Shown here one piece after another: positions 4,112 through 23,946 of a stretch of DNA of 64,000 nt. Below the pieces are notes generated by a model, which was given only the letters and a program-made list of their open reading frames with translations, did not search any database and had not been told where the DNA came from. Position numbers and translations under genes: made by a program. Position 1 is the stretch's first letter. The number at the start of each line of letters is the position of its first letter. Origin of the DNA: Halorubrum sp. 2020YC2 (GTDB lineage: Archaea; Halobacteriota; Halobacteria; Halobacteriales; Haloferacaceae); assembly GCF_018623055.1 (NCBI RefSeq), contig NZ_CP076019.1, forward strand, positions 1,798,001 through 1,862,000, given 5' to 3'.

Positions 4112-5542
4112 ATGATCCACGATCAGGCGAACTACGAGCGGGACGGAGAGGGCGTCCGCGAGCCGCTGCTCTCGGAGAAGGGCCAGGAGACGGTCGACGT
4201 GCGAGAGGACTCCCCGCTGCCGGACGACCTGACGCGCGAGGAGCTGACGCTGCCGAACCCCTCGGAGCCGGAGACGGCGCGCCACTACACCCGGCTCTCG
4301 CAGATGAACTGGGCGATCGACGCGGGCCCGTACCCGCTGGGGAGTTGTACGATGAAGTACAACCCCAAGTTCACCGAGGACGTCGCGGCCGACCCGAGCG
4401 CCGCGGTCCACCCGGACCGGTCCACGCGCTCGGCGCAGGGGATCTTAGAGCTGCAGTACCGGCTTCAAGAGGTCCTCGCGGACGTCGGCGGGATGGACGC
4501 CGTCACGCTCCAGCCGCCAGCGGGCGCCGCCGGGGAGCTGACGGGGATCCTCGTCGCGAAGGCGTACCACGAACACCACGGCAACGACCGCTCGGAGGTC
4601 GTGATCCCGGCGTCGGCGCACGGGACCAACTTCGCGACGGCCGCGACCGCCGGCTACGACGTGGTCGAGCTCCCCTCCGGCGAGGACGGCCGCGTCGACT
4701 TAGAGGCCCTGGAGGCGGCCGTGGGCGACGACACCGCCGCGCTCATGCTCACGAACCCGAACACGGTCGGCCTCTTCGAGCGCGACATCACCGAGATAGC
4801 CGACATCGTCCACGACGCGGGCGGACTGCTGTACTACGACGGCGCGAACCTCAACGCGCTGCTCGGTCGCGGCCGCCCCGGCGACATGGGGTTCGACGTG
4901 ATGCACTACAACGTCCACAAGACGTTCGCGACGCCTCACGGCGGCGGCGGTCCCGGCGCCGGCCCGGTCGGCGTCGTCGACGAGCTGGCGCCGTTCCTGC
5001 CGACGCCTCGGGTGCGCGAGGCCGAGGAGGGCGCCGGATACGAGCGCTTCGATCCGGCCCACACGATCGGGAAGGTCCACGGCTTCGCCGGCAACTGGCT
5101 CGTGTTGATCAAGGCGTACGCGTACATCGCCCGCCTCGGCGACGAGGGGCTCGCGGACGCGGCCGCGAAGGCCGTCCTCAACGCGAACTACCTCGCGGAG
5201 CGGCTCGACTTGGACGTGCCGCACGGTCCCTTCCACCACGAGTTCGCGGCGACCGCGGGCGACCGCGACGCGGCCGACGTCGCCAAGCGGATGCTCGACT
5301 TCGGCGTCCACCCGCCGACGACGAAGTGGCCGGAGATGGTGCCGGAGGCGATGCTGACGGAGCCGACGGAGATCGAGGGGCAGTCCTCGCTCGACGACCT
5401 CGCTGAGGCGTTCAACCTCGCGTACGCCGACACCGACGAGGCGCTCGACTCCGCGCCGAACCGGACCGCCGCCTCTCGGATCGATCAGGTCGCCGCCGCG
5501 CGCGACCCGCGGCTCTCGTGGCAGGCGCTCGACGGGGAGTAG
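4112..5542 (+). CDS. gcvPB: Glycine dehydrogenase (decarboxylating) subunit 2
   Basis: PLP-carrying half of the split P protein, 476 aa. The Schiff-base lysine is K270 in HYNVHKTFATPHGGGGPG; GPYPLGSCTMKYNPK and LQPPAGAAGELTGI are family signatures, and YYDGANLNALLG lines the cofactor pocket. It starts on the base after the gcvPA stop. With GcvH it would form most of a glycine cleavage system; T and L proteins must be encoded elsewhere. It supplies methylene-tetrahydrofolate, linking it to FolD at 26.3 kb. Confidence 0.97.
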   Translation: MIHDQANYERDGEGVREPLLSEKGQETVDVREDSPLPDDLTREELTLPNPSEPETARHYTRLSQMNWAIDAGPYPLGSCTMKYNPKFTEDVAADPSAAVHPDRSTRSAQGILELQYRLQEVLADVGGMDAVTLQPPAGAAGELTGILVAKAYHEHHGNDRSEVVIPASAHGTNFATAATAGYDVVELPSGEDGRVDLEALEAAVGDDTAALMLTNPNTVGLFERDITEIADIVHDAGGLLYYDGANLNALLGRGRPGDMGFDVMHYNVHKTFATPHGGGGPGAGPVGVVDELAPFLPTPRVREAEEGAGYERFDPAHTIGKVHGFAGNWLVLIKAYAYIARLGDEGLADAAAKAVLNANYLAERLDLDVPHGPFHHEFAATAGDRDAADVAKRMLDFGVHPPTTKWPEMVPEAMLTEPTEIEGQSSLDDLAEAFNLAYADTDEALDSAPNRTAASRIDQVAAARDPRLSWQALDGE

Positions 5543-5564
5543 CCCGGGAGGTCGCTCGGTCGCG

Positions 5565-6395
5565 TCAGGGTTCGGTCGCGGCCGACCGGACCGGCTCCTG
5601 CCCGTTGCGGTCGTTCGCGTCGAGTTCGTCGACGCCGTCGCCGTCGTCGGTCTCGTCGGGAGCGGCGGTGTCCGGGCCGGACCCCTCGACGGTCGCGGTC
5701 TCCTCGGAGGACGACTCGAACGATCCCGCGCCGTCGACGAACCGCCGCATCACCCGTCCCTCGGCGCGGTGGAGCGTCTCGCTACACGTCGACTTCGCGA
5801 TGCCGTTCGCCTCGGCCAGCTCCGTGAGCGTACATCGGCGCGGCGTGTCGTAGTACCCGGAGCGGACCGCCTCGAAGACGAGTTCCCGCTGCGCCTCCGT
5901 GAGCGTCCGGTCCGGGTCGTCGCCGCCGGTCGCGGCGACGCCGACCGTCACCCCGTCGCCGGCGAGCCGGCGCCCGAACGCCTCGATACGGTCCCGGTCT
6001 CCGACCACGGTCACGGTCGCGCGGCCGTCGACGACCTCGACCGTCGACTCGATCGGCAGGCCGACCGCCCGCGCCGCCGGGAGGTACGCGGGGGTCCGGG
6101 CGACCACGCGGAGCGTGCGGACCTCGCCGCGGCGCTCGACGGCCGTCGCGCGGATCACCCGGTCGTGCTCCCGGAGCGCGTCCCCGACCCGGTCCCGATC
6201 CGTGCCCGCGACGAGGACGGTCGCGACCACCGTCGCGCCGTCTCCGGCCGCGTCCGGGCCGTCGACGGGGACCGGGCCGTCGCCGTCGACCGCGATCGTT
6301 TCGTCGACTCGGAGCGTCGCGGCGGGGACGGTCCGCGAGACGTCCCCGAGCCACGACCCGGCCGGGAGGTCGAGCCGTAGTGCGGTCCGACTCAT
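5565..6395 (-). CDS. HTH-10 (Bat-type) DNA-binding regulator
   Basis: Probable transcription regulator of 276 aa. The C-terminal HTH-10 domain at about residues 170-228 (LTEAQRELVFEAVRSGYYDTPRRCTL, then LAEANGIAKSTCSETLHRAEGRV) is the bacterio-opsin-activator type common in haloarchaea. The N-terminal ~165 aa resemble the Bat-associated sensor domain. The acidic tail is low-complexity. The start was taken at MSRTALRLDL; the in-frame upstream extension is unlike protein. It converges on gcvPB and is divergent from thrC, so either could be a target, but nothing in the sequence proves it. Confidence 0.85.
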   Translation of the reverse strand: MSRTALRLDLPAGSWLGDVSRTVPAATLRVDETIAVDGDGPVPVDGPDAAGDGATVVATVLVAGTDRDRVGDALREHDRVIRATAVERRGEVRTLRVVARTPAYLPAARAVGLPIESTVEVVDGRATVTVVGDRDRIEAFGRRLAGDGVTVGVAATGGDDPDRTLTEAQRELVFEAVRSGYYDTPRRCTLTELAEANGIAKSTCSETLHRAEGRVMRRFVDGAGSFESSSEETATVEGSGPDTAAPDETDDGDGVDELDANDRNGQEPVRSAATEP

Positions 6396-9836: not shown

Positions 9837-10763
9837 ATGATCGACAGGCTGCTCGGGCGCGCCGAGCTGAAAGAGCGGATCGAGGAGCTCGAAGAGGAGA
9901 AGCGCCACCTCGAACGCCGCGCCGAGGCCGAGGAGGAGCGCCGCTCCGACGCCGTCGCGGACCGCCAGCGCGCCGAGGAGCGCGTCAACGAGCTGGAACA
10001 CCGGATCGAGTCGCTCGAAGAGCGATTGGAGCGCGCCGAGGGAACCGACGAGTCGATCGATTTCCGGCGCGTGAGCGACTACGGCGGCTCGCGGCTGGCG
10101 GACGCGCTCGACCGCTTCAGGGCCGTCGAGAGCGACGACCCCGAGGGGCTGCTCACGGCGTACGTCCCGGACGCGGACTCCGTCCCGGCGACCGTCTCGG
10201 ACTGGTTCGGTGACCGCACGGCGCTGGTCCGGCGGGCCGCGCCCGCCGTCGTCCTCGCTGACGACACCGGCGCGGTGAGCGCGGCGCTGACGCCGCCGGT
10301 CGAGCCGGAGCCGTTCGACCGGTGGAGCGACCGCTTCCGACTCGATGACGGGTGGTTCCGCCCGACCGGCCGGTTCGCGTTCGCCGTCGTCCGCTCGGAC
10401 GTCTTCGCCGTCGGCACCTACGAGGGCGACGAGCGGGTCGCCTTCGAGGGGTTCACGAGCGACGTGAAGGAGGCGCACTCGAAGGGCGGCTTCTCGCAGG
10501 GGCGCTTCGAGCGCCGCCGCGAGGGGCAGATCGACGACCACCTAGAGAAGGCGAACGAGGCGCTCGCCGCGGTCGCGGAGGGAGAGGGCGTCGCGGAGGG
10601 TGGGGGAGTCGACCGCGTGATCGCCGTGGGCGAGCGCAGCGTCCTCGGTCGGGTGCGCGACCGCGCCGACATCACCGACGTCTCCGACGCAACCGGGAAG
10701 CCGGAGGCGGCGCTCGACGACGCGTTCCGCGACTTCTGGCGGGTCCGCGTCCGCGCCATCTGA
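9837..10763 (+). CDS. Vms1-like (VLRF1) ribosome-rescue release factor
   Basis: A 308-aa protein. Residues 1-70 are a charged coiled coil (ELKERIEELEEEKRHLERR). Residues ~75-300 match the archaeal Vms1/ANKZF1-like family related to eRF1. The segment HSKGGFSQGRFERRREGQIDDHLEK corresponds to the conserved catalytic loop with its glutamine. Vms1-type proteins release nascent chains from stalled 60S/50S subunits by acting on peptidyl-tRNA. It has its own TATA-like element (CCTTTTAGG near 9807), about 30 bases before ATG. Function is by family only; the coiled coil may bind the ribosome. Confidence 0.78.
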   Translation: MIDRLLGRAELKERIEELEEEKRHLERRAEAEEERRSDAVADRQRAEERVNELEHRIESLEERLERAEGTDESIDFRRVSDYGGSRLADALDRFRAVESDDPEGLLTAYVPDADSVPATVSDWFGDRTALVRRAAPAVVLADDTGAVSAALTPPVEPEPFDRWSDRFRLDDGWFRPTGRFAFAVVRSDVFAVGTYEGDERVAFEGFTSDVKEAHSKGGFSQGRFERRREGQIDDHLEKANEALAAVAEGEGVAEGGGVDRVIAVGERSVLGRVRDRADITDVSDATGKPEAALDDAFRDFWRVRVRAI

Positions 10764-11583: not shown

Positions 11584-12117
11584 TCAGTACGAGGGCGACT
11601 CCTCCGGCTCGCCGTCGCGCGCGTTGACGACGCGCCCGAGGGTGAACAGGAGGTCGGAGAGCCGGTTGAGGTAGGTGACGACGGCCTCGTTTATCGGCTC
11701 CGAGCGCGCGAGGTCGACGACGCGGCGCTCGGCCCGGCGCGCGACGGCGCGCGCGTGGTGGAGCGCCGCCCCCGCCTCGCCGCCGCCGGGGAGGATGAAC
11801 GACGTGAGCGGCTCAAGCTCCTCGTCGAACGCGTCGATGCGCTCCTCTAGCTCCTCGGTGTGGCGGCGCTCGACCTGCGGGTCGTCCGGGTCGGGGTCGG
11901 GGTTCGCGAGGTCGGCCTGAACGATGTGGAGGTGGTTCTGGACCGTCTCCAGCAGGTCGTCGACGTCGCCGTGGCCGGTCGGGCGGATCGTCCCGAGCAG
12001 CGCGTTCGCCTCGTCGACGGAGCCGTACGCCTCGATGCGGTGGCTCGACTTCGACACCCGGCTCATGTCCCGGAGGTCGGTCTCGCCCTCGTCGCCGCGG
12101 CCGGTGTAGATGCTCAT
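11584..12117 (-). CDS. Cob(I)alamin adenosyltransferase, PduO type
   Basis: Converts cob(I)alamin and ATP to adenosylcobalamin. The 177 aa form the PduO-type helical bundle: YTGRGDEGETDLRDMSRVSKSS is the N-terminal ATP-binding signature, GSVDEANALLG follows, and HHARAVARRAERRVV with INEAVVTYLNRLSDLLFTLGR carries the conserved C-terminal arginine/asparagine set. Start at MSIYTGRGDEG, which overlaps the stop of the glutaredoxin-like gene by 4 bp (ATGA). The overlap implies coupled expression; reduction of cobalamin or thiol chemistry may link them. Confidence 0.93.
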   Translation of the reverse strand: MSIYTGRGDEGETDLRDMSRVSKSSHRIEAYGSVDEANALLGTIRPTGHGDVDDLLETVQNHLHIVQADLANPDPDPDDPQVERRHTEELEERIDAFDEELEPLTSFILPGGGEAGAALHHARAVARRAERRVVDLARSEPINEAVVTYLNRLSDLLFTLGRVVNARDGEPEESPSY

Positions 12118-12353
12118 TCGAGGGTCCTCTCGACGTACTCGACGATGTTCGCGCTCTCCGCCATCGTCACGCCGCGCTCCTCGTCGACGAGGACGGGGAC
12201 GCCGCGCTGGCCGCTGACTCGCTTGACCTCGTTGCGCTCGGAGTGGAGCGCCTCCACCCACTCCGTCTCGTACTCGACGCCCGCCTCCGCCAGGGCGTCG
12301 GCCGCCTTCTCACACCACGGACACCCGTCGAGGGCGTACAGTCGAACGCTCAT
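12114..12353 (-). CDS. Glutaredoxin / GST N-terminal-like thiol protein
   Basis: A 79-aa thioredoxin-fold protein. The N-terminal LYALDGCPWCEKAADAL contains the CPWC redox motif; GVPVLVDEERGVTMAESANIVEYVE has the cis-proline and the GST-type ESxxI motif. Probably a dithiol oxidoreductase working with gamma-glutamylcysteine, the main thiol in many haloarchaea; the partner is inference. Overlaps the adenosyltransferase start by 4 bp. Confidence 0.88.
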   Translation of the reverse strand: MSVRLYALDGCPWCEKAADALAEAGVEYETEWVEALHSERNEVKRVSGQRGVPVLVDEERGVTMAESANIVEYVERTLE

Positions 12354-13490: not shown

Positions 13491-14507
13491 TCAGACGAGG
13501 ACGCGCTCGACGTCCAGCCCGGTCGCTCGCCGGACGACCGCGCTCACGGGGTCGACCGAGCCGGACAGGTTGTCGGAGTCGCCGTCGAGGACGACGAGCG
13601 CCGCCCGCCGGCCCGGTTCGATGACCCCGCAGTCGAGGCCGGCGATCTCGGCGCCCGCGGCGGTCGCCATCCGCAGCACCTCCCGGTCGGTCACGTCGAA
13701 CCGCTTCGCCGCGGTCGCCATCTCGCGGAACATCGACGGCGGGTTCAGCATGACGTTGTCCGTCCCGAGCGCGACAGTCGTGTGGTCGAGCAGCTCCCGA
13801 ATGGGCGCCTTTCCGACGTCGAGGACCTCGTTCGCGCGGGGACAGACCGCGACCGGAACCGACTGGTCCGCGACCCGCGCCAAGTGCTCTCGCTCCGCGT
13901 GGACCATGTGGACGAGGAGGTCGGGTTCGAGGTCGAGCGCCGGGTGGACGTCGGTCGCGTCCGGCTCACCCGCGTGGATCGCGAAGGGCCGGCCGCGCTC
14001 CTCGCAGGCGGCGCGCTCCGCCGCGAAGTCGTCGTCGTTCGCGCCGGAGGCCCCGTAGCCGTCGGCGACGTCGAGGACGGACGGGTCGCCGCTCCCGAAG
14101 ATGAACGGGTCGACGCCCGTCTCGGCGGCCGCGTCGCGGAGCGCCCGCGCGCCGGCGGGTCCCGACTCGCGGAAGTCCAGACACGAAACCGTCCCGGTCC
14201 GGCGCATGAACCGGAGCGTCCGGCGCACCGCCGACACGAGCTCGTCGCGGTCGGCGGCCGCCAGCCGCCGGTGTTTGCGGCTATCGGGCGGCGCCACCGC
14301 CTCGTCGAGCGAGAGGCCGACCGCCGCCTCCTTCGCGACGGAGTCACCGACGTGGGTGTGTGCGTTGACGAACGCCGGGATCACGACGTCCGTCGAGTCG
14401 GTGTCCGTCTCCTCGACGGCTTCGATCCGCCCGTCCTCGACGACGACGCGCCCGCGAACGCGCTCGAACGACTCCCCGACGAGGACGGTCCCAGAGAGTT
14501 CCTCCAT
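13491..14507 (-). CDS. Amidohydrolase-superfamily metal-dependent hydrolase
   Basis: A 338-aa TIM-barrel hydrolase of the TRZ/ATZ deaminase-like branch. Metal-ligand motifs in order are NAHTHVGD (HxH), IHAGEPD, HMVHAE and LGTDNVM (Asp). ADVVV-like beta segments at both ends form the small composite domain. Likely hydrolyses or deaminates a heterocycle or amide; the substrate is unknown. Transcribed towards the Lrp-type gene; divergent from dabB. Confidence 0.85.
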   Translation of the reverse strand: MEELSGTVLVGESFERVRGRVVVEDGRIEAVEETDTDSTDVVIPAFVNAHTHVGDSVAKEAAVGLSLDEAVAPPDSRKHRRLAAADRDELVSAVRRTLRFMRRTGTVSCLDFRESGPAGARALRDAAAETGVDPFIFGSGDPSVLDVADGYGASGANDDDFAAERAACEERGRPFAIHAGEPDATDVHPALDLEPDLLVHMVHAEREHLARVADQSVPVAVCPRANEVLDVGKAPIRELLDHTTVALGTDNVMLNPPSMFREMATAAKRFDVTDREVLRMATAAGAEIAGLDCGVIEPGRRAALVVLDGDSDNLSGSVDPVSAVVRRATGLDVERVLV

Positions 14508-14661
14508 ACCGCCCCTGCGCGCTCGCGAACGATATGGTTTTCTGAGTGACGACGGCGAACGGTCCGTGAACGCGGGCCGTCGGGTGGCCGACGCCCTCGC
14601 CGCTCAGCGGCCTCTCGGATAAACATAATGTTCTATGATCTGGTTTGATCGAACGATTTGT

Positions 14662-14693
14662 GAACACAGACAGCTTTAATAGACGTTGTGTTC
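14662..14693 (+). promoter_or_regulatory. dabB promoter: TATA box inside a 7-bp inverted repeat
   Basis: TTTAATA (14675-14681) is the TATA-like box. It is bracketed by GAACACA (14662-14668) and TGTGTTC (14687-14693), perfect inverted repeats with an 18-bp spacer. A protein bound to them would block or steer TBP/TFB, so this is a candidate operator. It implies a leader of ~70 nt before the chosen dabB start. Confidence 0.5.
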
Positions 14694-14772
14694 TCAAATT
14701 TGGGTAGATGCGACCGTATTCGGATTCGGATGCGTTCCGAACGCCGGACGCGGTCGCGTGACGAGTCGAACG

Positions 14773-16254
14773 ATGTCAGGACGCACCTCGAAACCGACGG
14801 TCGGAGCGCTCCGGGAGGCGGGCGAGTCGTCGCCCGTCCCCGCGGTATTGACGTGGCTCGCGTGGTCGCTGTTCGCCGCGAGCGTCGCCGCGCTCGTCGC
14901 CCGAGTCCGACTGGAGGGGGCGTGGGAGCTCCCCGGCGCGGTCGCCGTTGACGGGCTGACCGTCCTGCTGTGGGTCGTTGTCACCTTCTTCAGCGGGGTC
15001 GTTCACAGCTACTCGCGCCGCTACATGGCCGGGAGCGCCCACGAGACGGCGTTCTTCGGCACGGTCTTCGCGTTCACGCTCGCCGTGATTGCGCTCGTCG
15101 CGGCCGACCACGTCGCGCTGTTCTGGCTCTGCTGGCTGGCGATGGGGCTGGCGATGGCCCGGCTCATCGGGGCCGTCGACGGCTGGCCGCAGGCGCGGGC
15201 CGCCGCGAGCGTCGCCCGCCGCTCCTTCCTCGCCAGCAGCGCGCTCCTCGGCGTCGCGCTCGCGACGCTCTGGTGGGCGACGGGCGCCACGACGGTCTCC
15301 GGGGTCGCCGCGAGCGCCGACGGTCTCGGCGGTCCCGCGTGGTTCGTCGCCGCGGCCGCGCTCGTCCTCGCGGCGATGATCCAGTCGGCGCTGGTCCCGT
15401 TCCACGGCTGGCTGCTCTCCTCGATGACCGCCCCGACGCCCGCCTCGGCGCTGATGCACGCCGGGTTCGTCAACGCGGGCGGCGTCCTGTTGACGCGCTT
15501 CGCCCCGGTCGTGACCGCCGACGCGACGCTCATGCTCGCCGTCGTGGTCGCGGGAGCGACGAGCGCCCTGCTGGGGAAACTACTCAAGACGGTCCAGCCG
15601 GACGTCAAGGGCGAACTGGGCTGCTCGACGGTCGGCCAGATGGGCTTCATGATCATGCAGGCCGGGCTGGGCTTCTTCGGCGCCGCGATCACGCACCTGA
15701 TCGTCCACGGCTTCTACAAGGCGTACCACTTCCTCAGCGCCGGCGAGGAGGTCGAACTCGGGGCCCCGGGCGAGGAGGACCGCTCCGGGACGAGCGCCGT
15801 CGGCGCGGTCGTCGTGCTGGCGACCGGCCTGGCGGGCGGCGCGACGTTCGCGGTCCTCACCGGGAAGGGGACGAGCGTCGACAGCGGGCTGCTGCTCGCG
15901 GCGCTCGTCGCGCTCACCACGCTCCACGCGGCCCGGAGCGCCCTCCGCCAGACCGCGCTGTCGCCGGCGGCCCGCTACGGCGCGATCCCGCTGGTCTTCC
16001 TCCCGGCGATTGCGGGGTACGCGCTCGTCTACGAGGCCGTGTCGAGCGTCCTCGCCGGGGTGCCGATGGTCTCCGCGCCCACCGAACTGACCGCGCTCCA
16101 CGCGCTCGTCGCCGTCGCCTTCCTCGCGGCGTACGTCGCGACCGAGACGGGCGTCCACGAGCGGAGCGAGCGCCTCTACGTCGCGCTGCTGAACGCGGGG
16201 CAACCCGCGCCCGAGACGGTGTTGACCGCCACGGAGGAATACAATGAGTACTGA
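14773..16254 (+). CDS. dabB: DabB-like membrane subunit of an inorganic-carbon transporter (NuoL-like)
   Basis: Proton- or cation-conducting membrane partner of DabA. The 493 aa with about 13 hydrophobic segments resemble NuoL/MrpA: SALVPFHGWLLSSMTAPTPASALMHAGFVNAGG and FYKAYHFLSAG carry the family's conserved Lys/His positions in the discontinuous channel helix. The start was taken at MSGRTSKPTVG; an upstream in-frame ATG at 14686 adds a non-homologous leader. Overlaps dabA by 11 bp, so the two are coupled. In the DAB system the ion gradient drives CO2 hydration to bicarbonate in DabA. Confidence 0.88.
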   Translation: MSGRTSKPTVGALREAGESSPVPAVLTWLAWSLFAASVAALVARVRLEGAWELPGAVAVDGLTVLLWVVVTFFSGVVHSYSRRYMAGSAHETAFFGTVFAFTLAVIALVAADHVALFWLCWLAMGLAMARLIGAVDGWPQARAAASVARRSFLASSALLGVALATLWWATGATTVSGVAASADGLGGPAWFVAAAALVLAAMIQSALVPFHGWLLSSMTAPTPASALMHAGFVNAGGVLLTRFAPVVTADATLMLAVVVAGATSALLGKLLKTVQPDVKGELGCSTVGQMGFMIMQAGLGFFGAAITHLIVHGFYKAYHFLSAGEEVELGAPGEEDRSGTSAVGAVVVLATGLAGGATFAVLTGKGTSVDSGLLLAALVALTTLHAARSALRQTALSPAARYGAIPLVFLPAIAGYALVYEAVSSVLAGVPMVSAPTELTALHALVAVAFLAAYVATETGVHERSERLYVALLNAGQPAPETVLTATEEYNEY

Positions 16255-18700
16255 ACGCGCCATCAGAGAGCGCATCGACGACGCCGCGACCGCCGTCGGC
16301 CCGGTCTGGCCGATCCACTCGTTCGTGACCGCAAACCCGCTTTCCGGCTTCGAGGACCGGCCCTTCTCCGAGGCCGTGTCCCTGGCGGCCGACCGCCTCG
16401 GCGGTCGCGGCTACCCGAGCCCGGAGACGTTCCGGGCGGCCCTCGACGACGGCCGGATCGACCCCGAACTCCTCGACGCGGAGCTGACCGAACGGGGGTA
16501 CGAGGCCGACCCCGAGACCCTGCTGGACCGGACGGAGAGCGGCGCCGAGAGCGGGAATCCGACCGGCACCGAGACCCGAGGGCCGTCCGGTGGCGACGAG
16601 GCGGAGCACCCGGGCGTCGAGCGGGTCGACCGCGTGCTCTCGAAGTGGCTGTCGGCGTTCCTCGACGAGGGGCAGGCAGAGTGGTCGATGCCGAACCGGG
16701 AGGACGGGTTCTACGACGCCTTCCGCTCGGTGGCGCCGTACGACGACGAGATACCCGAAAAGGGCCTCGCGGCCGATCTGCCGGCGTCGCCTATCGACGC
16801 CGTCGAGTCCGTGCTGGGGCCGTACCCCGAGGGGAGATGGGGGTCGGTCTTCGAGGCGCAACTCGCCGCGCTCCCGGGGTGGACCGGCCTGATCAAGCGC
16901 CGCGCCGCGGACGACGGCGCGTGGCAGTCCGCGCACCCGATCACGCTCGAAGGGTACCTCGCGGTCCGGCTCGCCCTGCTCGACGCCTTCGACGTCGACG
17001 TCGCGCCACCGCCCGAATCGGGTGACAGCGAGGCCGAGACCGCCGACGAGCCGGCCGACGCGTTCCTGAGCGCGTGGGAGGCGAGCTACCGCGGCGAACT
17101 CGTCGACCGGGTCGCGGCCGAGAGCGAGGCCCGCGGCGAGGCGGCCGACGCCCGCGTCGACGGCGGCGCGTCGGGGCGGCCGGACGCGCAACTGGTCTTC
17201 TGTATCGACACGCGCTCGGAGGTTGTCCGGCGGCACATCGAGGCGACGGGCGACTACGAGACCCACGGGTACGCCGGCTTCTTCGGCGTCCCGATGGAGT
17301 ACCGCGGGTACGACGCCGACGCGTCGGTCGACGCGTGTCCCCCCATCGTCGACGCCCAACACCGGATCTCCGAGGTGCCGACCGACGGGGACGCGCGGGC
17401 CAGCCGCGACCGCTTGGCTAGCCTTCGCGAGGCCGCCGGCGACGTGGTCGAGGCGCTGAAGTCCAACCCCGCCACCGCGTTCAGCTTCGTCGAGGGCGCC
17501 GGGAGCGGGTACGGAGTCGCGCTCGCGGCCCGCACCCTCCTCCCCGGGCGGGTGTACGACGTGCTCGGCGCCGCCGACGACTCGACGCCCGACGACCACG
17601 AGTTCTGCGAGCCGGGCGTCCACGACCACGACGACTCCGGGGTGGGCCTCCCGGTAGGACTGACCCGCGACGAGAGGGTCGAGTACGCCGCGACCGCCTT
17701 CGAGTTGATGGGCTGGGAGGCGTTCGGGCGGCTCGTCGTCTTCGCCGGCCACGCGGCCGAGACGGCCAACAACCCCTACGGCTCCAGCCTCGACTGCGGC
17801 GCCTGCGCCGGCAACCCGGGCGGACCGAACGCCCGCGTGCTCGCGGCGATCTGTAACGACCCCGAGGTGAAGGCGGGCCTGCGCGAGCGCGGCCACGACG
17901 TGCCGGACGACACCGTCTTCCTCGCGGCCGAGCACAACACGACGACCGACGAGATAGCGCTGTACGACGGCGACGTGCCCGACTCGCACGCCGAGGACCT
18001 CGCCCGGTTGCGCGCGGACCTCGACGCCGCGCGCGAAGGCGCGGCGGCCGAGCGGACCGGGTCGGACTCCGGAGACGCGGCCGTTCGCGAGACCGAGCGC
18101 CGCGCCGGCGACTGGGCCGAGACGCGCCCGGAGTGGGGGCTGGCCGGAAACGCCGGGTTCGTCGTCGGGCCCCGCGAACTGACGAGCGACCTCGACCTCG
18201 ACGGGCGGGCCTTCCTCCACTCGTACGACTGGGAGACCGACCCCGAGGGCGACGCGCTCGAAGCTATCCTCGCCGGGCCGATGGTCGTCACCCAGTGGAT
18301 CAACGCGCAGTACTACTTCTCGACGGTCGACAACGCGGCGTACGGGAGCGGGTCGAAGGTGACCCACAACCCCGTCGGGAACGTCGGCGTCCATCAGGGC
18401 AACGGCGGCGACCTGATGACCGGCCTCCCCCTCCAGTCGGTCATGGCCGCGGCCGACGAGCCGTACCACCAGCCGCTCCGCCTCTCGACGGTCCTCCACG
18501 CGCCGGTCGACCGCGTCACCGAGGTCTTAGCCGACAACGAGGGGGTGGCCGAACTGCTGGACAACGACTGGCTCTCGCTGACGGTCGTCGACCCGACGCA
18601 AGAGCACCGCGCGTTCCACTACGAGTCGGACTTAGAGTGGACGTCGCCGTCCGGGTCCGAGCGGACCGAGGCGCCGGCCGCCGCCGTCGCGGACGACTGA
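16244..18700 (+). CDS. dabA: DabA-like carbonic-anhydrase-type subunit (DUF2309/UPF0753)
   Basis: Large soluble subunit, 818 aa, of a DAB inorganic-carbon accumulation complex. The beta-carbonic-anhydrase-like zinc site is visible: C320 and D322 in LVFCIDTRSE, H503 in VFAGHAAE and C518 in SSLDCGACAGNPGG, matching the Cys-Asp-His-Cys set known for DabA. ANPYGSS-like and NVGVHQGNGGDLMTGLPLQSV segments near the C-terminus are also family features. An acidic insertion at 98-122 and one at 258-272 look halophilic. It works with the membrane subunit encoded just upstream. Confidence 0.93.
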   Translation: MSTERAIRERIDDAATAVGPVWPIHSFVTANPLSGFEDRPFSEAVSLAADRLGGRGYPSPETFRAALDDGRIDPELLDAELTERGYEADPETLLDRTESGAESGNPTGTETRGPSGGDEAEHPGVERVDRVLSKWLSAFLDEGQAEWSMPNREDGFYDAFRSVAPYDDEIPEKGLAADLPASPIDAVESVLGPYPEGRWGSVFEAQLAALPGWTGLIKRRAADDGAWQSAHPITLEGYLAVRLALLDAFDVDVAPPPESGDSEAETADEPADAFLSAWEASYRGELVDRVAAESEARGEAADARVDGGASGRPDAQLVFCIDTRSEVVRRHIEATGDYETHGYAGFFGVPMEYRGYDADASVDACPPIVDAQHRISEVPTDGDARASRDRLASLREAAGDVVEALKSNPATAFSFVEGAGSGYGVALAARTLLPGRVYDVLGAADDSTPDDHEFCEPGVHDHDDSGVGLPVGLTRDERVEYAATAFELMGWEAFGRLVVFAGHAAETANNPYGSSLDCGACAGNPGGPNARVLAAICNDPEVKAGLRERGHDVPDDTVFLAAEHNTTTDEIALYDGDVPDSHAEDLARLRADLDAAREGAAAERTGSDSGDAAVRETERRAGDWAETRPEWGLAGNAGFVVGPRELTSDLDLDGRAFLHSYDWETDPEGDALEAILAGPMVVTQWINAQYYFSTVDNAAYGSGSKVTHNPVGNVGVHQGNGGDLMTGLPLQSVMAAADEPYHQPLRLSTVLHAPVDRVTEVLADNEGVAELLDNDWLSLTVVDPTQEHRAFHYESDLEWTSPSGSERTEAPAAAVADD

Positions 18701-18745
18701 GTCCGCGCTCGGCAGCCGGCGCCAGCGGATTCCGTTGCCGCGGGG

Positions 18746-18886
18746 TATCAAAAGGGGCACACGGCCCGGGAGGACGGCAGCGCGTTCGGGCTGTCGATCG
18801 TCGAGCGGATCGTCGACGCGCACGGCTGGGAGATCCGCGCCGCCGGCGACGCGACCGGCGGCGCCCGGTTCGAGATCACGACCTGA
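18746..18886 (+). pseudogene. Remnant of a sensor histidine kinase (C-terminal ATPase end)
   Basis: Forty-seven codons, open to TGA, translate as the last part of a HATPase domain: GHTAREDGSAFGLSIVERIV (ATP-lid and G2 box) then DAHGWEIRAAGDATGGARFEITT, close to the standard end of haloarchaeal kinases. There is no start codon, histidine box, N or G1 box upstream; the reading frame begins 45 bases after the dabA stop. This is a truncated relic left by deletion, not a functional gene. Confidence 0.8.
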
Positions 18887-18920
18887 GAAGGGGATCTGGG
18901 CCGGACCGACCGATGGCGAG

Positions 18921-19265
18921 TCAGACGCCGGGGACGCCGAACGCGCTGATACTGAGGCCGAGCACGCCGTTCAGGACCGCGATGACGACCAGCGCGGCCG
19001 CCCACGCGACCAGCCCCATGATCGCGGCGTCCTTCCAGCCGCCGGGGTACCGCCAGTTGATAACCCACACCCACGCGATCAGCGCGACCAGCGACCCGAT
19101 CAGGGGGATCAGCGACCCGATCGCCCACGCGAGAGCGCCGAAGAGCGCCGTGACCACCGCGTGCGAGTAGTCGTCGACGCCCGCGACGACGCGACCGCTG
19201 ATATAAATCCCCAGTCCACCGACCAGCAGCGCCACGACGAACGAGACGATAGCTCCGAGAACCAT
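18921..19265 (-). CDS. Small membrane protein, three to four helices, function unknown
   Basis: A 114-aa protein starting MVLGAIVSFVVALLVGGLGIYISGRVVAG, followed by hydrophobic segments around residues 38-65 and 85-110 and a short WVWVINWRYPGGWKD loop. No catalytic residues. The start was chosen at the ATG immediately before the first helix, as the upstream extension is polar and non-conserved-looking. It converges on the histidine kinase remnant. Family not recognised. Confidence 0.7.
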   Translation of the reverse strand: MVLGAIVSFVVALLVGGLGIYISGRVVAGVDDYSHAVVTALFGALAWAIGSLIPLIGSLVALIAWVWVINWRYPGGWKDAAIMGLVAWAAALVVIAVLNGVLGLSISAFGVPGV

Positions 19266-19379
19266 GTGTCCGCCGTCTCGGGTCGGACGGATATAGCAGG
19301 GGGACAGCGTTCCCCGGAGTGACACGTTCCCGGCGCAGGGTCGACCGGGCTACGACCCCGGACCGGCGCCGGGTCCCGC

Positions 19380-20054
19380 TCAGTACAGCAGTTCGTCGTC
19401 GTTCTCGATCATGTACAGCGAGCGGGCGGCGATGTTGACCGCGTGGTCCCCGACCCGTTCGAGGTCGCGGATCGTCAGGAGGAGCCGCGAGACGTTTCGC
19501 ATCGTCGCCTCCACGTCCTCGTCGTCGCGGAGTTCGTCGCGCTCGATCAGGTCGCGGACGACGAGGTCGCTCGCGGCCTCGCAGGCGGCGTCGACGTCGT
19601 CGTCGGCCTCCGCGACGGCGTGACAGCGATCGGGGTCCGACTCCGCGTACGCCGCCATCGCCTCCTCGAGCATCGCCAGCGTGTCGTCACCGATGCGCTG
19701 GACGTCGACGTCGGGGAACACCTCTCTGTCGGCCTGTTTGGCGTACTCCCCGAGGTTCGTCGCTAAGTCCGCGATCCGTTCGAGGTCGGTGATGATCTTG
19801 AACGACGCCGCGATGAACCGCAGGTCGCCGGCGACCGGCTGCTGGAGCGCGATGAGGTCCGTACACTGCCCCTCTAACTCGAGGTAGAGGTCGTTGATCT
19901 CGGCGTCGCCGGTGATCACTTCCTCGCCCAGTTCGCCGTCCTGCCGTTCGAGGGCGTCGAGGCCCTTGCGGAGCCGCTCCGCGACCACCTCGCTCATGTA
20001 GAGGACGTCGTCGCGGAGCCCCTCCAGTTTCGTCTGGTACTGTTCGCGTGGCAT
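19380..20054 (-). CDS. phoU: PhoU-domain phosphate-uptake regulator
   Basis: Two PhoU three-helix bundles in 224 aa. Each carries the metal-binding pattern: DLERIADLATNLGEYAK (first repeat) and DLERVGDHAVNIAARS (second). It controls the Pst phosphate transporter and related signalling in the cytoplasm. No pst genes are within the window, so it is either a solitary paralogue or at the end of its regulon's dispersed set. The start at MPREQYQTKLEGLRDDV matches the family. Confidence 0.9.
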   Translation of the reverse strand: MPREQYQTKLEGLRDDVLYMSEVVAERLRKGLDALERQDGELGEEVITGDAEINDLYLELEGQCTDLIALQQPVAGDLRFIAASFKIITDLERIADLATNLGEYAKQADREVFPDVDVQRIGDDTLAMLEEAMAAYAESDPDRCHAVAEADDDVDAACEAASDLVVRDLIERDELRDDEDVEATMRNVSRLLLTIRDLERVGDHAVNIAARSLYMIENDDELLY

Positions 20055-20232
20055 CGTGTTGGCGTATCCGCCACGCCGGACGCACAAAAACACGTCGGCG
20101 GGGGCGGTCCGGCTGCCCGTCCGTCCATCTGCGAGTCGGAGATCACCGGGTCGGTCCGCTGCGCCCGTCGTCGCCCCGCCGGTCCCGCGGTCGAGCGAAG
20201 CGTTCAAACCCCGCCGCGACGACGGCCCGGAC

Positions 20233-20367
20233 ATGCAGCTCATGGAAGACATCGTCCTCGACGAGAACGAGGAGGCGCTCGCGCCCGCGGTCGTGATCGC
20301 GACGGTCGCGCTCCTCGCGGTGTTCGTCGTCGGAGTCCTGGTCTCGGTCGTCGGTCTCGTCGTCTGA
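20233..20367 (+). CDS. Single-helix small membrane protein, 44 aa
   Basis: Short acidic N-terminus (MQLMEDIVLDENEEALAPA) followed by one long hydrophobic helix (VVIATVALLAVFVVGVLVSVVGLVV) ending at the stop. An internal ATG three codons in is an equally good start. No family recognised; likely a membrane-anchored small protein. Third-position GC fits the genome. Confidence 0.55.
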   Translation: MQLMEDIVLDENEEALAPAVVIATVALLAVFVVGVLVSVVGLVV

Positions 20368-20463
20368 CCGGCCTCGTTCCGGCGGCGGAGCGACGCCGGA
20401 ACGGCGCCGGAGCGGCGGTGCCCGGCCCCGACGCTTTTAGTCCCCCCGCCGGGAGAGGCCGGC

Positions 20464-21189
20464 ATGGACCGCCGGATACTCGCTGACCTCCTCGACCGCA
20501 ACGACGACCACGTCGCTGCGCTCGCCCCCGGCGCCTTCGACCGCCACCGCGACGACCAGCGCCCCGGCGTGGTCTCCGTCTGCTGTTCCGACTCGCGCGT
20601 CTCCCAAGAGGGGATGTTCGCGGTCGACGAGCCGGGGTACCTCTTCACCTCCGGCGCCATCGGCAACAGCGTGAGCGCGCTCGTCGACGGCGAGCGCGTC
20701 CTCGACGGGAGCGTGGCGTACCCGCTGGGTCACACCCACACCGAGGTGCTCGCCGTGGTCGGACACACCGGGTGCGGCGCGGTCGGCGCCGCGCTCGCCG
20801 CGGCTCGCACCGGAGAGTTCCCGGCCGAGCCGGGCGTCCGCGCCGACGTTAAGTCGCTGCTGCCGATCGTCGAGGCCGGGCTGGACGACCCGGCCGTCCG
20901 CGGCGACGACGGCGGGGCGGGGGAGAGAGACATCGGCGACCCGGGCGGCGGCGCCTCGGTCCGCGACAGGCTCGTCGAGTACAACGTCCACGAGCAGGTC
21001 GCGTTCGCCCGCGAGAGCGAGGAGGCGGCCGACGCGATGGTGTACGGCTTCGTCTACGACCTCCACGGCGTCTACGGCGACCGCGACGGGGCCGTCTACC
21101 TCGTCAACGCCGACGGCGAGCGCGACCCCGCGGCGCTGCGCGAACTCGTCGGGGACGCGCGCGCGGACCGCGTGGCGACGCTCCTGTAG
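20464..21189 (+). CDS. Beta-type carbonic anhydrase
   Basis: Zinc enzyme interconverting CO2 and bicarbonate, 241 aa. The beta-class site is complete: C41-x-D43-x-R45 in VCCSDSRVS and H101-x2-C104 in VVGHTGCGAVGA. FTSGAIGN is the conserved strand beside the site. An acidic, glycine-rich insertion at ~155-172 is halophile-specific. A TATA-like CTTTTAG lies at 20434-20440, 27 bases before ATG. It lies 1.8 kb from dabA, and together they suggest a bicarbonate-supply function for carboxylases. Confidence 0.93.
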   Translation: MDRRILADLLDRNDDHVAALAPGAFDRHRDDQRPGVVSVCCSDSRVSQEGMFAVDEPGYLFTSGAIGNSVSALVDGERVLDGSVAYPLGHTHTEVLAVVGHTGCGAVGAALAAARTGEFPAEPGVRADVKSLLPIVEAGLDDPAVRGDDGGAGERDIGDPGGGASVRDRLVEYNVHEQVAFARESEEAADAMVYGFVYDLHGVYGDRDGAVYLVNADGERDPAALRELVGDARADRVATLL

Positions 21190-23583: not shown

Positions 23584-23946
23584 TTATCGGAGCTCCGCGA
23601 CCTTCTCGCCGATGTCCTCGACGTCGTCGGCGGCGTCGCCGGCGTCGACGACGGCGGCGGCGGCCGAGCCGACTTCGAGACCGGCGGCCTGGCCGACCTC
23701 GTCCTGCGTGTCGACAAAGGCGACCGGAATCCCCTTCTCCTCGGCGAGTTCGGGGAGGTGCATCACGATCTCCTCGGGGGAGACGTCCTCAGCGACGATA
23801 ACGAGATCCGCGTTGCCGCGCTCGACGGCCTTGGTGGTCTCGTTGGTTCCTTTCTTTACTGTACCGGTGTCTCGGGCGACCTCGAGCGCTTCGAGGGATC
23901 GCTCCGCGAGGTCCGCTGGGGTGTCGTAGTCTACGTAAACGGGCAT
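23584..23946 (-). CDS. rpl7ae: Ribosomal protein L7Ae
   Basis: A 120-aa kink-turn-binding protein: part of the 50S subunit and also of box C/D and H/ACA RNPs and RNase P in archaea. The RNA-binding signature is [45 protein letters not shown]. First gene of the rpl7ae-rps28e-rpl24e-ndk operon. Confidence 0.97.

Follow-up and report, generated by a model that had tools for sequence, protein, structure and literature searches.

A haloarchaeal DabAB inorganic-carbon locus with a linked Lrp/AsnC-type regulator gene, a conserved promoter-operator and an optional carbonic anhydrase neighbour

The dabBA genes and their family

The window analyzed here is a 64-kb stretch of Halorubrum sp. 2020YC2, and all coordinates given without another label are positions in this window. 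It contains the adjacent genes dabB and dabA of a DAB-type inorganic-carbon system, a gene for an Lrp/AsnC-type regulator upstream of them, a conserved promoter-operator directly before dabB, and a gene for a beta-carbonic anhydrase (CA) further downstream (Table 1). The locus was compared with three samples. The first comprises 293 Halobacteriales genomes, of which 160 have a match to PF10070 and are counted as dabA-positive and 133 are counted as dabA-negative. The second comprises 141 haloarchaeal dab loci, i.e., the window and 140 loci fetched with about 10 kb on either side. The third consists of 80 bacterial loci, the best of 585 confirmed relatives of DabA2, and its sampling is biased towards DabA2.

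Sequence and structure matches confirm that the region encodes a genuine DabAB complex of the DAB/MpsAB type, as an earlier note on this DNA had proposed. In Pfam searches the match of DabA to PF10070 spans the entire model (positions 1-747 of 747), and DabB matches Proton_antipo_M. DabA2 is the sole solved DabA relative found by sequence (E 1.2e-108), and the best structural match of DabB is its partner DabB2 (E 4.7e-40). The NuoL-like DabB overlaps DabA, as the note had stated; the overlap amounts to 11 bp, and the same 11-bp overlap is found in 123 of the 141 loci. A single pair does not overlap: in locus L113 (genome G118) mechanical gene calls place dabB and dabA 464 bp apart. The start that the note assigned to dabB, 14662, is too early, as this frame has stop codons at 14677; the conserved start is the ATG at 14773.

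The zinc set that had been read from the sequence, C320, D322, H503 and C518, is exact in its positions and aligns with C351, D353, H524 and C539 of DabA2. Together with R324, these residues correspond to the DAB/DAC zinc site (Cys2His and an Asp-Arg dyad), which is found throughout the haloarchaeal loci (141/141). In the alignment to DabA2 the window protein also keeps R324, S325, E417 (the finger Glu), H564, D569 and L633. The equivalents of C351, D353, R355, S356, E444, H524, C539, H585 and L658 are invariant in all 141 haloarchaeal DabAs, and the equivalent of D590 is kept in 137.

With DAB2 of Halothiobacillus neapolitanus (PDB 9rd0) the window system shares the adjacent dabB and dabA genes, the DabA zinc site C-D-R-H-C, the finger Glu, the Leu replacing the carbonic anhydrase transition-state residue, and the S/H/K/S/H/H/K proton path of DabB. 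Unlike DAB2, it has an Lrp-type regulator and an operator and belongs to a heterotrophic host without RuBisCO; its DabA is about 35% identical to DabA2, with A703 replaced by Gly in 141 of 141 haloarchaeal sequences, and R182/D185/K235 of DabB are changed to L/S/Q. The earlier note associates DAB systems mainly with CO2-fixing bacteria and so leaves out MpsAB, which occurs in the heterotrophs Staphylococcus and Bacillus. MpsAB is likewise a DAB homologue in a non-autotroph, and a CA gene lies immediately downstream of it in S. sciuri, B. anthracis and B. subtilis, according to a passage of PMC8552792. In contrast to MpsAB, the haloarchaeal system has a dedicated Lrp-type gene and operator, and 132 of the 160 dabA-positive genomes have a beta-CA alongside the DAB. 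A haloarchaeal DAB as such is not new: HVO_2410/HVO_2411 of Haloferax volcanii were predicted in 2021 to be a DabAB-type CO2 transporter (PMC8305020). The accessible part of that account mentions neither a regulator nor an operator nor the change of DabB residues, and we found no mention of these three features of haloarchaeal dab in the open-licence literature searched.

Table 1. Features of the dab locus, its surroundings in the window, and CA-like genes of other loci
Feature	Position	Strand	Evidence or remark
Lrp/AsnC-type regulator gene, 159 aa	12981-13460	+	HTH_AsnC-type 48.6 bits; proposed dedicated dabBA regulator
Upstream AT-rich site AACATAATGTTCTATGAT, consensus CATaatGTTCtaTaat	14622-14639	+	conserved block upstream of dabB
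43-bp promoter-operator: GAAC arm, TATA box TTTAATA (14675-14681), GTTC arm	14651-14693	+	PWM 59 bits
5' leader, arms CGACC (14711-14715) and GGTCG (14752-14756)	14708-14759	+	possible hairpin before start codon
dabB, NuoL-like membrane subunit, 493 aa	14773-16254	+	PF00361 121.6 bits; PDB 9rd0_B
dabA, cytoplasmic zinc subunit, 818 aa	16244-18700	+	PF10070 857.6 bits; PDB 9rd0_A; active-site residues
Beta-carbonic anhydrase gene, 241 aa	20464-21189	+	PF00484 64 bits; linked but not operonic
VLRF1-type release-factor-like protein	9837-10760	+	
Cobalamin adenosyltransferase	11584-12258	-	
Amidohydrolase	13491-14507	opposite to dab	lies between Lrp gene and dabB
Small membrane-type open reading frame	between dabA and CA gene	-	
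phoU	19383-20054	-	between dabA and CA gene
L7Ae-type ribosomal protein	23587-23946	-	
CA-like genes before dabB	L119:12768-13451; L102:12776-13468; L111:12773-13468; L117:6455-7153		
CA-like genes before dabB, further	L130:12766-13461; L052:6300-7091; L068:6450-7130		broken copies in L115 and L047

The regulator gene and the promoter-operator

The Lrp-type gene and the operator, both absent from the earlier note, are the strongest conserved partners of dab. The encoded protein resembles known Lrp/AsnC regulators (PDB 2ivm and 1i1g, LrpA) in its AsnC-type helix-turn-helix (PF13404, 48.6 bits; PF13412, 55.3 bits), and phmmer aligns it to Lrp structures over residues 3-114 and 6-129; it differs from these regulators in apparently having one target per genome and in being genetically tied to dabBA. 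In a search with the window's Lrp protein, an ortholog (best E <1e-55) is present in 157 of the 160 dabA-positive versus 1 of the 133 dabA-negative genomes (Fisher p 3e-79), and across the 293 genomes no best match has an E-value between 3e-63 and 4e-46. As shared ancestry inflates this p-value, the genomes were also compared genus by genus: in 16 of the 17 genera of mixed dabA status the presence of the Lrp gene and of dabA is fully concordant, and the 17th fails by genome G277 only. The ortholog is missing from the dabA-positive genomes G011, G025 and G277. In G277 (genus g61) only weak fragments of dabA are left, which suggests a joint decay of the unit.

A direct search places the Lrp gene upstream of dabB and on the same strand in 140 of the 141 loci, with a distance to dabB of up to 600 bp in 104 loci, up to 2 kb in 33 and up to 5 kb in three; in the remaining locus (G051) the best match lies about 55 kb from dabA. 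The annotation of H. hispanica agrees with an Lrp gene linked to dab. The trio of Lrp gene, dabB and dabA is also found, with its operator, on plasmids of Haloarcula hispanica (operator score 72 bits) and Halobaculum litoreum (59 bits).

The operator is a 43-bp element of fixed spacing, GAAC-N5-G-...-TTTAATA-...-GTTC, in the 420 bp before a conserved DabB position. Scored with a position weight matrix (PWM) derived from these very sequences, it exceeds 30 bits in 134 of the 141 loci; shuffled regions reach at most -19 bits. Positions 1-4 (GAAC), 10 (G), 27-28 (TA) and 40-43 (GTTC) are 98-100% conserved, and a scan of the window with the matrix finds a single copy. A scan of the 293 genomes with a fixed, strict IUPAC pattern is a more independent test than the matrix, yet the pattern is derived from the same loci. 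It gave 116 matches in 114 genomes, and 107 of these are located 1570-1748 bp upstream of dabA on the dabA strand. The others comprise four in dabA-positive genomes for which the place of dabA is unlisted, two stray matches in dabA-positive genomes and three in dabA-negative genomes; the reversed pattern matched once. None of the 80 bacterial dab loci scores above 5 bits. Beside this element, AATGTTCTAT occurs upstream of dabB with up to two mismatches in 98 of the 141 loci.

These comparisons of sequence suggest that dabBA is most likely transcribed from one dedicated promoter-operator, which is probably bound by the Lrp/AsnC-type protein encoded upstream. The linkage, the co-occurrence and the operator are seen directly, and the binding and its signal are what we infer from them. 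Some observations speak against this assignment: a RAM-domain Pfam model is unreported for the regulator at E 1e-3; one dabA-negative genome, G010, has an Lrp ortholog; and in seven loci the element stays below 30 bits despite the presence of a linked Lrp gene, several of which, by eye, hold a recognizable element with altered spacing. These seven loci also favor an alternative, in which the element is bound by another factor, or is simply a core promoter of an unusual kind, and the Lrp protein encoded nearby controls something else. The element does enclose the TATA box, and the binding of Lrp is a prediction from sequence. Nevertheless, this alternative appears unlikely to us, because the GAAC and GTTC arms, which are nearly invariant and lie outside the TATA box at a constant distance, exceed the needs of a core promoter, about one copy per genome fits one dedicated regulator, and the Lrp gene co-occurs so closely with dabA across the genomes. 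A pair of one regulator and one site makes the signal directly testable in the genetically tractable Haloferax and Haloarcula.

In the leader between the operator and dabB a 5-bp CGACC/GGTCG stem is found in 90 of 132 sequences versus 20 of 132 when the 3' part is shuffled, and the arms are 74% paired versus 15-44% when the partner is slid. RNAalifold returned no structure for the whole leader, and only the anchored CGACC/GGTCG stem stands out. A hairpin in the leader is possible, on weaker evidence than the operator.

Carbonic anhydrase and its linkage to dab

The complete beta-CA that the earlier note described 1.8 kb downstream of dabA is indeed there and, judged by its motifs (C41-x-D43-x-R45 and H101-x2-C104) and its Pro_CA match, appears intact. 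Small plus-strand open reading frames lie between dabA and this gene, and minus-strand genes as well; the two are therefore not part of one operon. The dab operator is not found at the CA gene, as the only operator site in the window lies before dabB. A second beta-CA is encoded at about 2.79 Mb in the same genome.

The note had treated DabAB and the CA as one module and had suggested looking for conservation of the pair across haloarchaea, where the linkage does recur. An intact beta-CA gene lies within the fetched flanks in 52 of the 141 loci: nearby downstream and convergent in 29, just downstream and co-directional in four, co-directional downstream at a distance in six, all from the genus of the window, upstream and divergent in seven, and upstream and co-directional in six. 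The dab-linked CAs fall into at least four well-separated clades of the CA tree, and the linkage thus seems to have arisen repeatedly. The CA of the window belongs to a genus-specific clade that is dab-linked in 6 of the 15 same-genus loci examined, and within the genus the distance between dab and CA ranges from 1.8 to 6.7 kb. Just after dabA in the window (18735-18887), the sequence, inspected by eye, reads like the final ~35 codons of a histidine kinase gene, the rest of which has probably been deleted. In the dab locus of the relative L155 a kinase gene that ends alike is complete (483 codons), which fits a gene deletion in the window and the variable distance between dab and CA in the genus.

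The evidence for a module does not extend to the presence of the genes. PF00484 is matched in 251 of the 293 genomes; 132 genomes have dabA and CA, 28 dabA only, 119 CA only and 14 neither (p 0.10). The two presences are not positively associated, and the opposite pattern known from staphylococci, in which dabA and beta-CA complement each other, was considered and is weak in these data. We therefore take the beta-CA as an optional companion of dab rather than as an obligatory partner within a module. The stronger alternative, that DAB and beta-CA are a functional pair in which the CA supplies or equilibrates CO2 and bicarbonate for or after the pump, seems to us possible but rather doubtful. 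It would account for a linkage seen in 52 loci, where we estimate that roughly one would be expected by chance, for its recurrence across different gene arrangements (at least five) and CA clades (at least four), and for the same linkage in Bacillus and S. sciuri reported in a passage of PMC8552792. However, it is at odds with the 28 of 160 dabA-positive genomes without a PF00484 match, including 4 of the 17 in the window's own genus, with the disagreement between the presence of dabA and of CA in 61 of the 120 genomes of the 17 mixed genera, and with the CA gene having no dab operator; furthermore, a pump that shares its compartment with a CA would be short-circuited.

Directly before dabB and on the same strand, 9 of the 141 loci carry a CA-like gene that keeps the Cys, His and Cys residues. 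The catalytic Asp-Arg dyad is lost, with SC[SP]M or CCPM/TCPM in place of CSDSR; the copy in L119 matches Pro_CA with 28.7 bits. These genes possibly encode CO2/bicarbonate-sensing or accessory pseudoenzymes.

The DabB ion path and the proposed function

The residues of the DabB2 proton path are retained in the haloarchaeal DabBs: S256 and H260 in all 141, and K310, S316, H339, H343 and K347 in 140 each. Their counterparts in the window are S225, H229, K279, S285, H308, H312 and K316. The NuoL-type ion pair is gone: K235 is replaced by Gln in 140 of the 141 proteins (Q204 in the window) and D185 by Ser, Thr or Gly in all of them (S156 in the window), and R182, the neighbor of this pair, is replaced by a hydrophobic residue. 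In the bacterial sample, which Firmicute MpsA proteins fall outside of, 79 of the 80 loci have a DabB; the R182/D185/K235 triad reads R/D/K in 68 and R/E/K in two, differs with the Lys kept in three, and is unalignable in six. A DabB from a Nocardia plasmid has L/D/R. The ion pair is a feature of bacterial DabBs and not a published criterion of DAB membership. Its loss suggests that the haloarchaeal DABs use a different mode of coupling or function without the NuoL-type latch, and as a natural loss across a whole order it provides a ready test of how NuoL-type subunits are gated.

In the mechanism we propose, CO2 would diffuse into the cell and bind the buried zinc site of DabA, while DabB would let protons, or possibly Na+, run in, such that CO2 is hydrated one way to bicarbonate, which the membrane would retain inside the cell. 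This one-way chemistry, driven by the proton motive force, is carried over by analogy from Halothiobacillus DAB2; the DabA site, the finger Glu E417 and the DabB proton path are all present in the sequence. The bicarbonate most likely feeds phosphoenolpyruvate carboxylase (PEPC) and biotin carboxylases, and hence anaplerosis, in this heterotroph, whose genome encodes PEPC and two biotin-type carboxyltransferases. The Lrp/AsnC-type protein would bind the operator and switch the costly pump according to carbon status, and the beta-CA, under other control, would likely act under ample CO2 or serve in equilibrating the pool. We consider this explanation as a whole, a haloarchaeal DAB that supplies bicarbonate under control of an Lrp-type protein and its operator and has the beta-CA as an optional companion, to be probable. 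It bears on how brine-dwelling heterotrophic archaea obtain bicarbonate, and on why so many of them retain a carbonic anhydrase in addition to a pump that traps CO2.

Several points count against it. The open-licence literature searched yielded no experimental study of a haloarchaeal DAB. The ion pair discussed above is missing, and its breakage in DAB2 cuts growth by 30-60%, with rescue not abolished (as given in a passage of PMC13144422). A passage of PMC8552792 calls the possession of both MpsAB and CA hard to understand, with CA reconverting imported bicarbonate to CO2; by this argument, a CA located in the cytosol next to the pump would dissipate the bicarbonate gradient. Three candidate sinks, compared between dabA-positive and dabA-negative genomes, show no association with dabA: PEPC (50/61 versus 61/85, p 0.17), RuBisCO (61/160 versus 42/133, p 0.27) and glutamate mutase (20/61 versus 22/85, counted by eye). 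The sink is therefore one that we infer. PF00016 (RuBisCO) has no match in the window's genome (G000) or in 18 other sampled genomes of the genus, and no full-length glutamate mutase was found in the window's genome. In one genome (G023:C1:262489-269825) a PEPC gene (262489-265152, minus strand) lies divergently beside the Lrp gene (265298-265750, plus strand), with dabA following on the plus strand from 267567. This neighborhood of PEPC and the Lrp-dabB-dabA unit is a hint at the sink.

Alternatively, DabBA could be chiefly an ion-coupled transporter (Na+ or H+) that acts on pH or on the membrane potential, and its effect on inorganic carbon would then be secondary. MpsAB is said to have been first named as an ion-coupled transporter. 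DabB is a member of the Mrp/NuoL antiporter superfamily, the habitat of haloarchaea is rich in Na+, and the absence of the ion-pair latch from all 141 haloarchaeal DabBs leaves room for a different ion or a different coupling; moreover, passages of PMC13144422 and PMC8552792 argue for Na+ coupling of MpsAB. However, the catalytic residues of DabA are invariant in 141 of 141 proteins and would be unneeded for ion transport, and DAB2 requires no sodium according to a passage of PMC13144422. We thus regard a chiefly ion-transporting DabBA as improbable and prefer the supply of bicarbonate. A broader proposition is about evenly balanced, namely that the haloarchaeal DABs form a separate branch, a plasmid-mobile unit of Lrp-type sensor, dabB and dabA with one private inorganic-carbon-sensing operator per genome and a latch-free DabB.

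Among phages, dab appears in one 5.9-kb record only, OR849901.1 (Staphylococcus phage SA 1298 Kay), with a DabA/MpsB-like stretch at its positions 4163-5800 (37%). This stretch is probably host DNA under a phage label.

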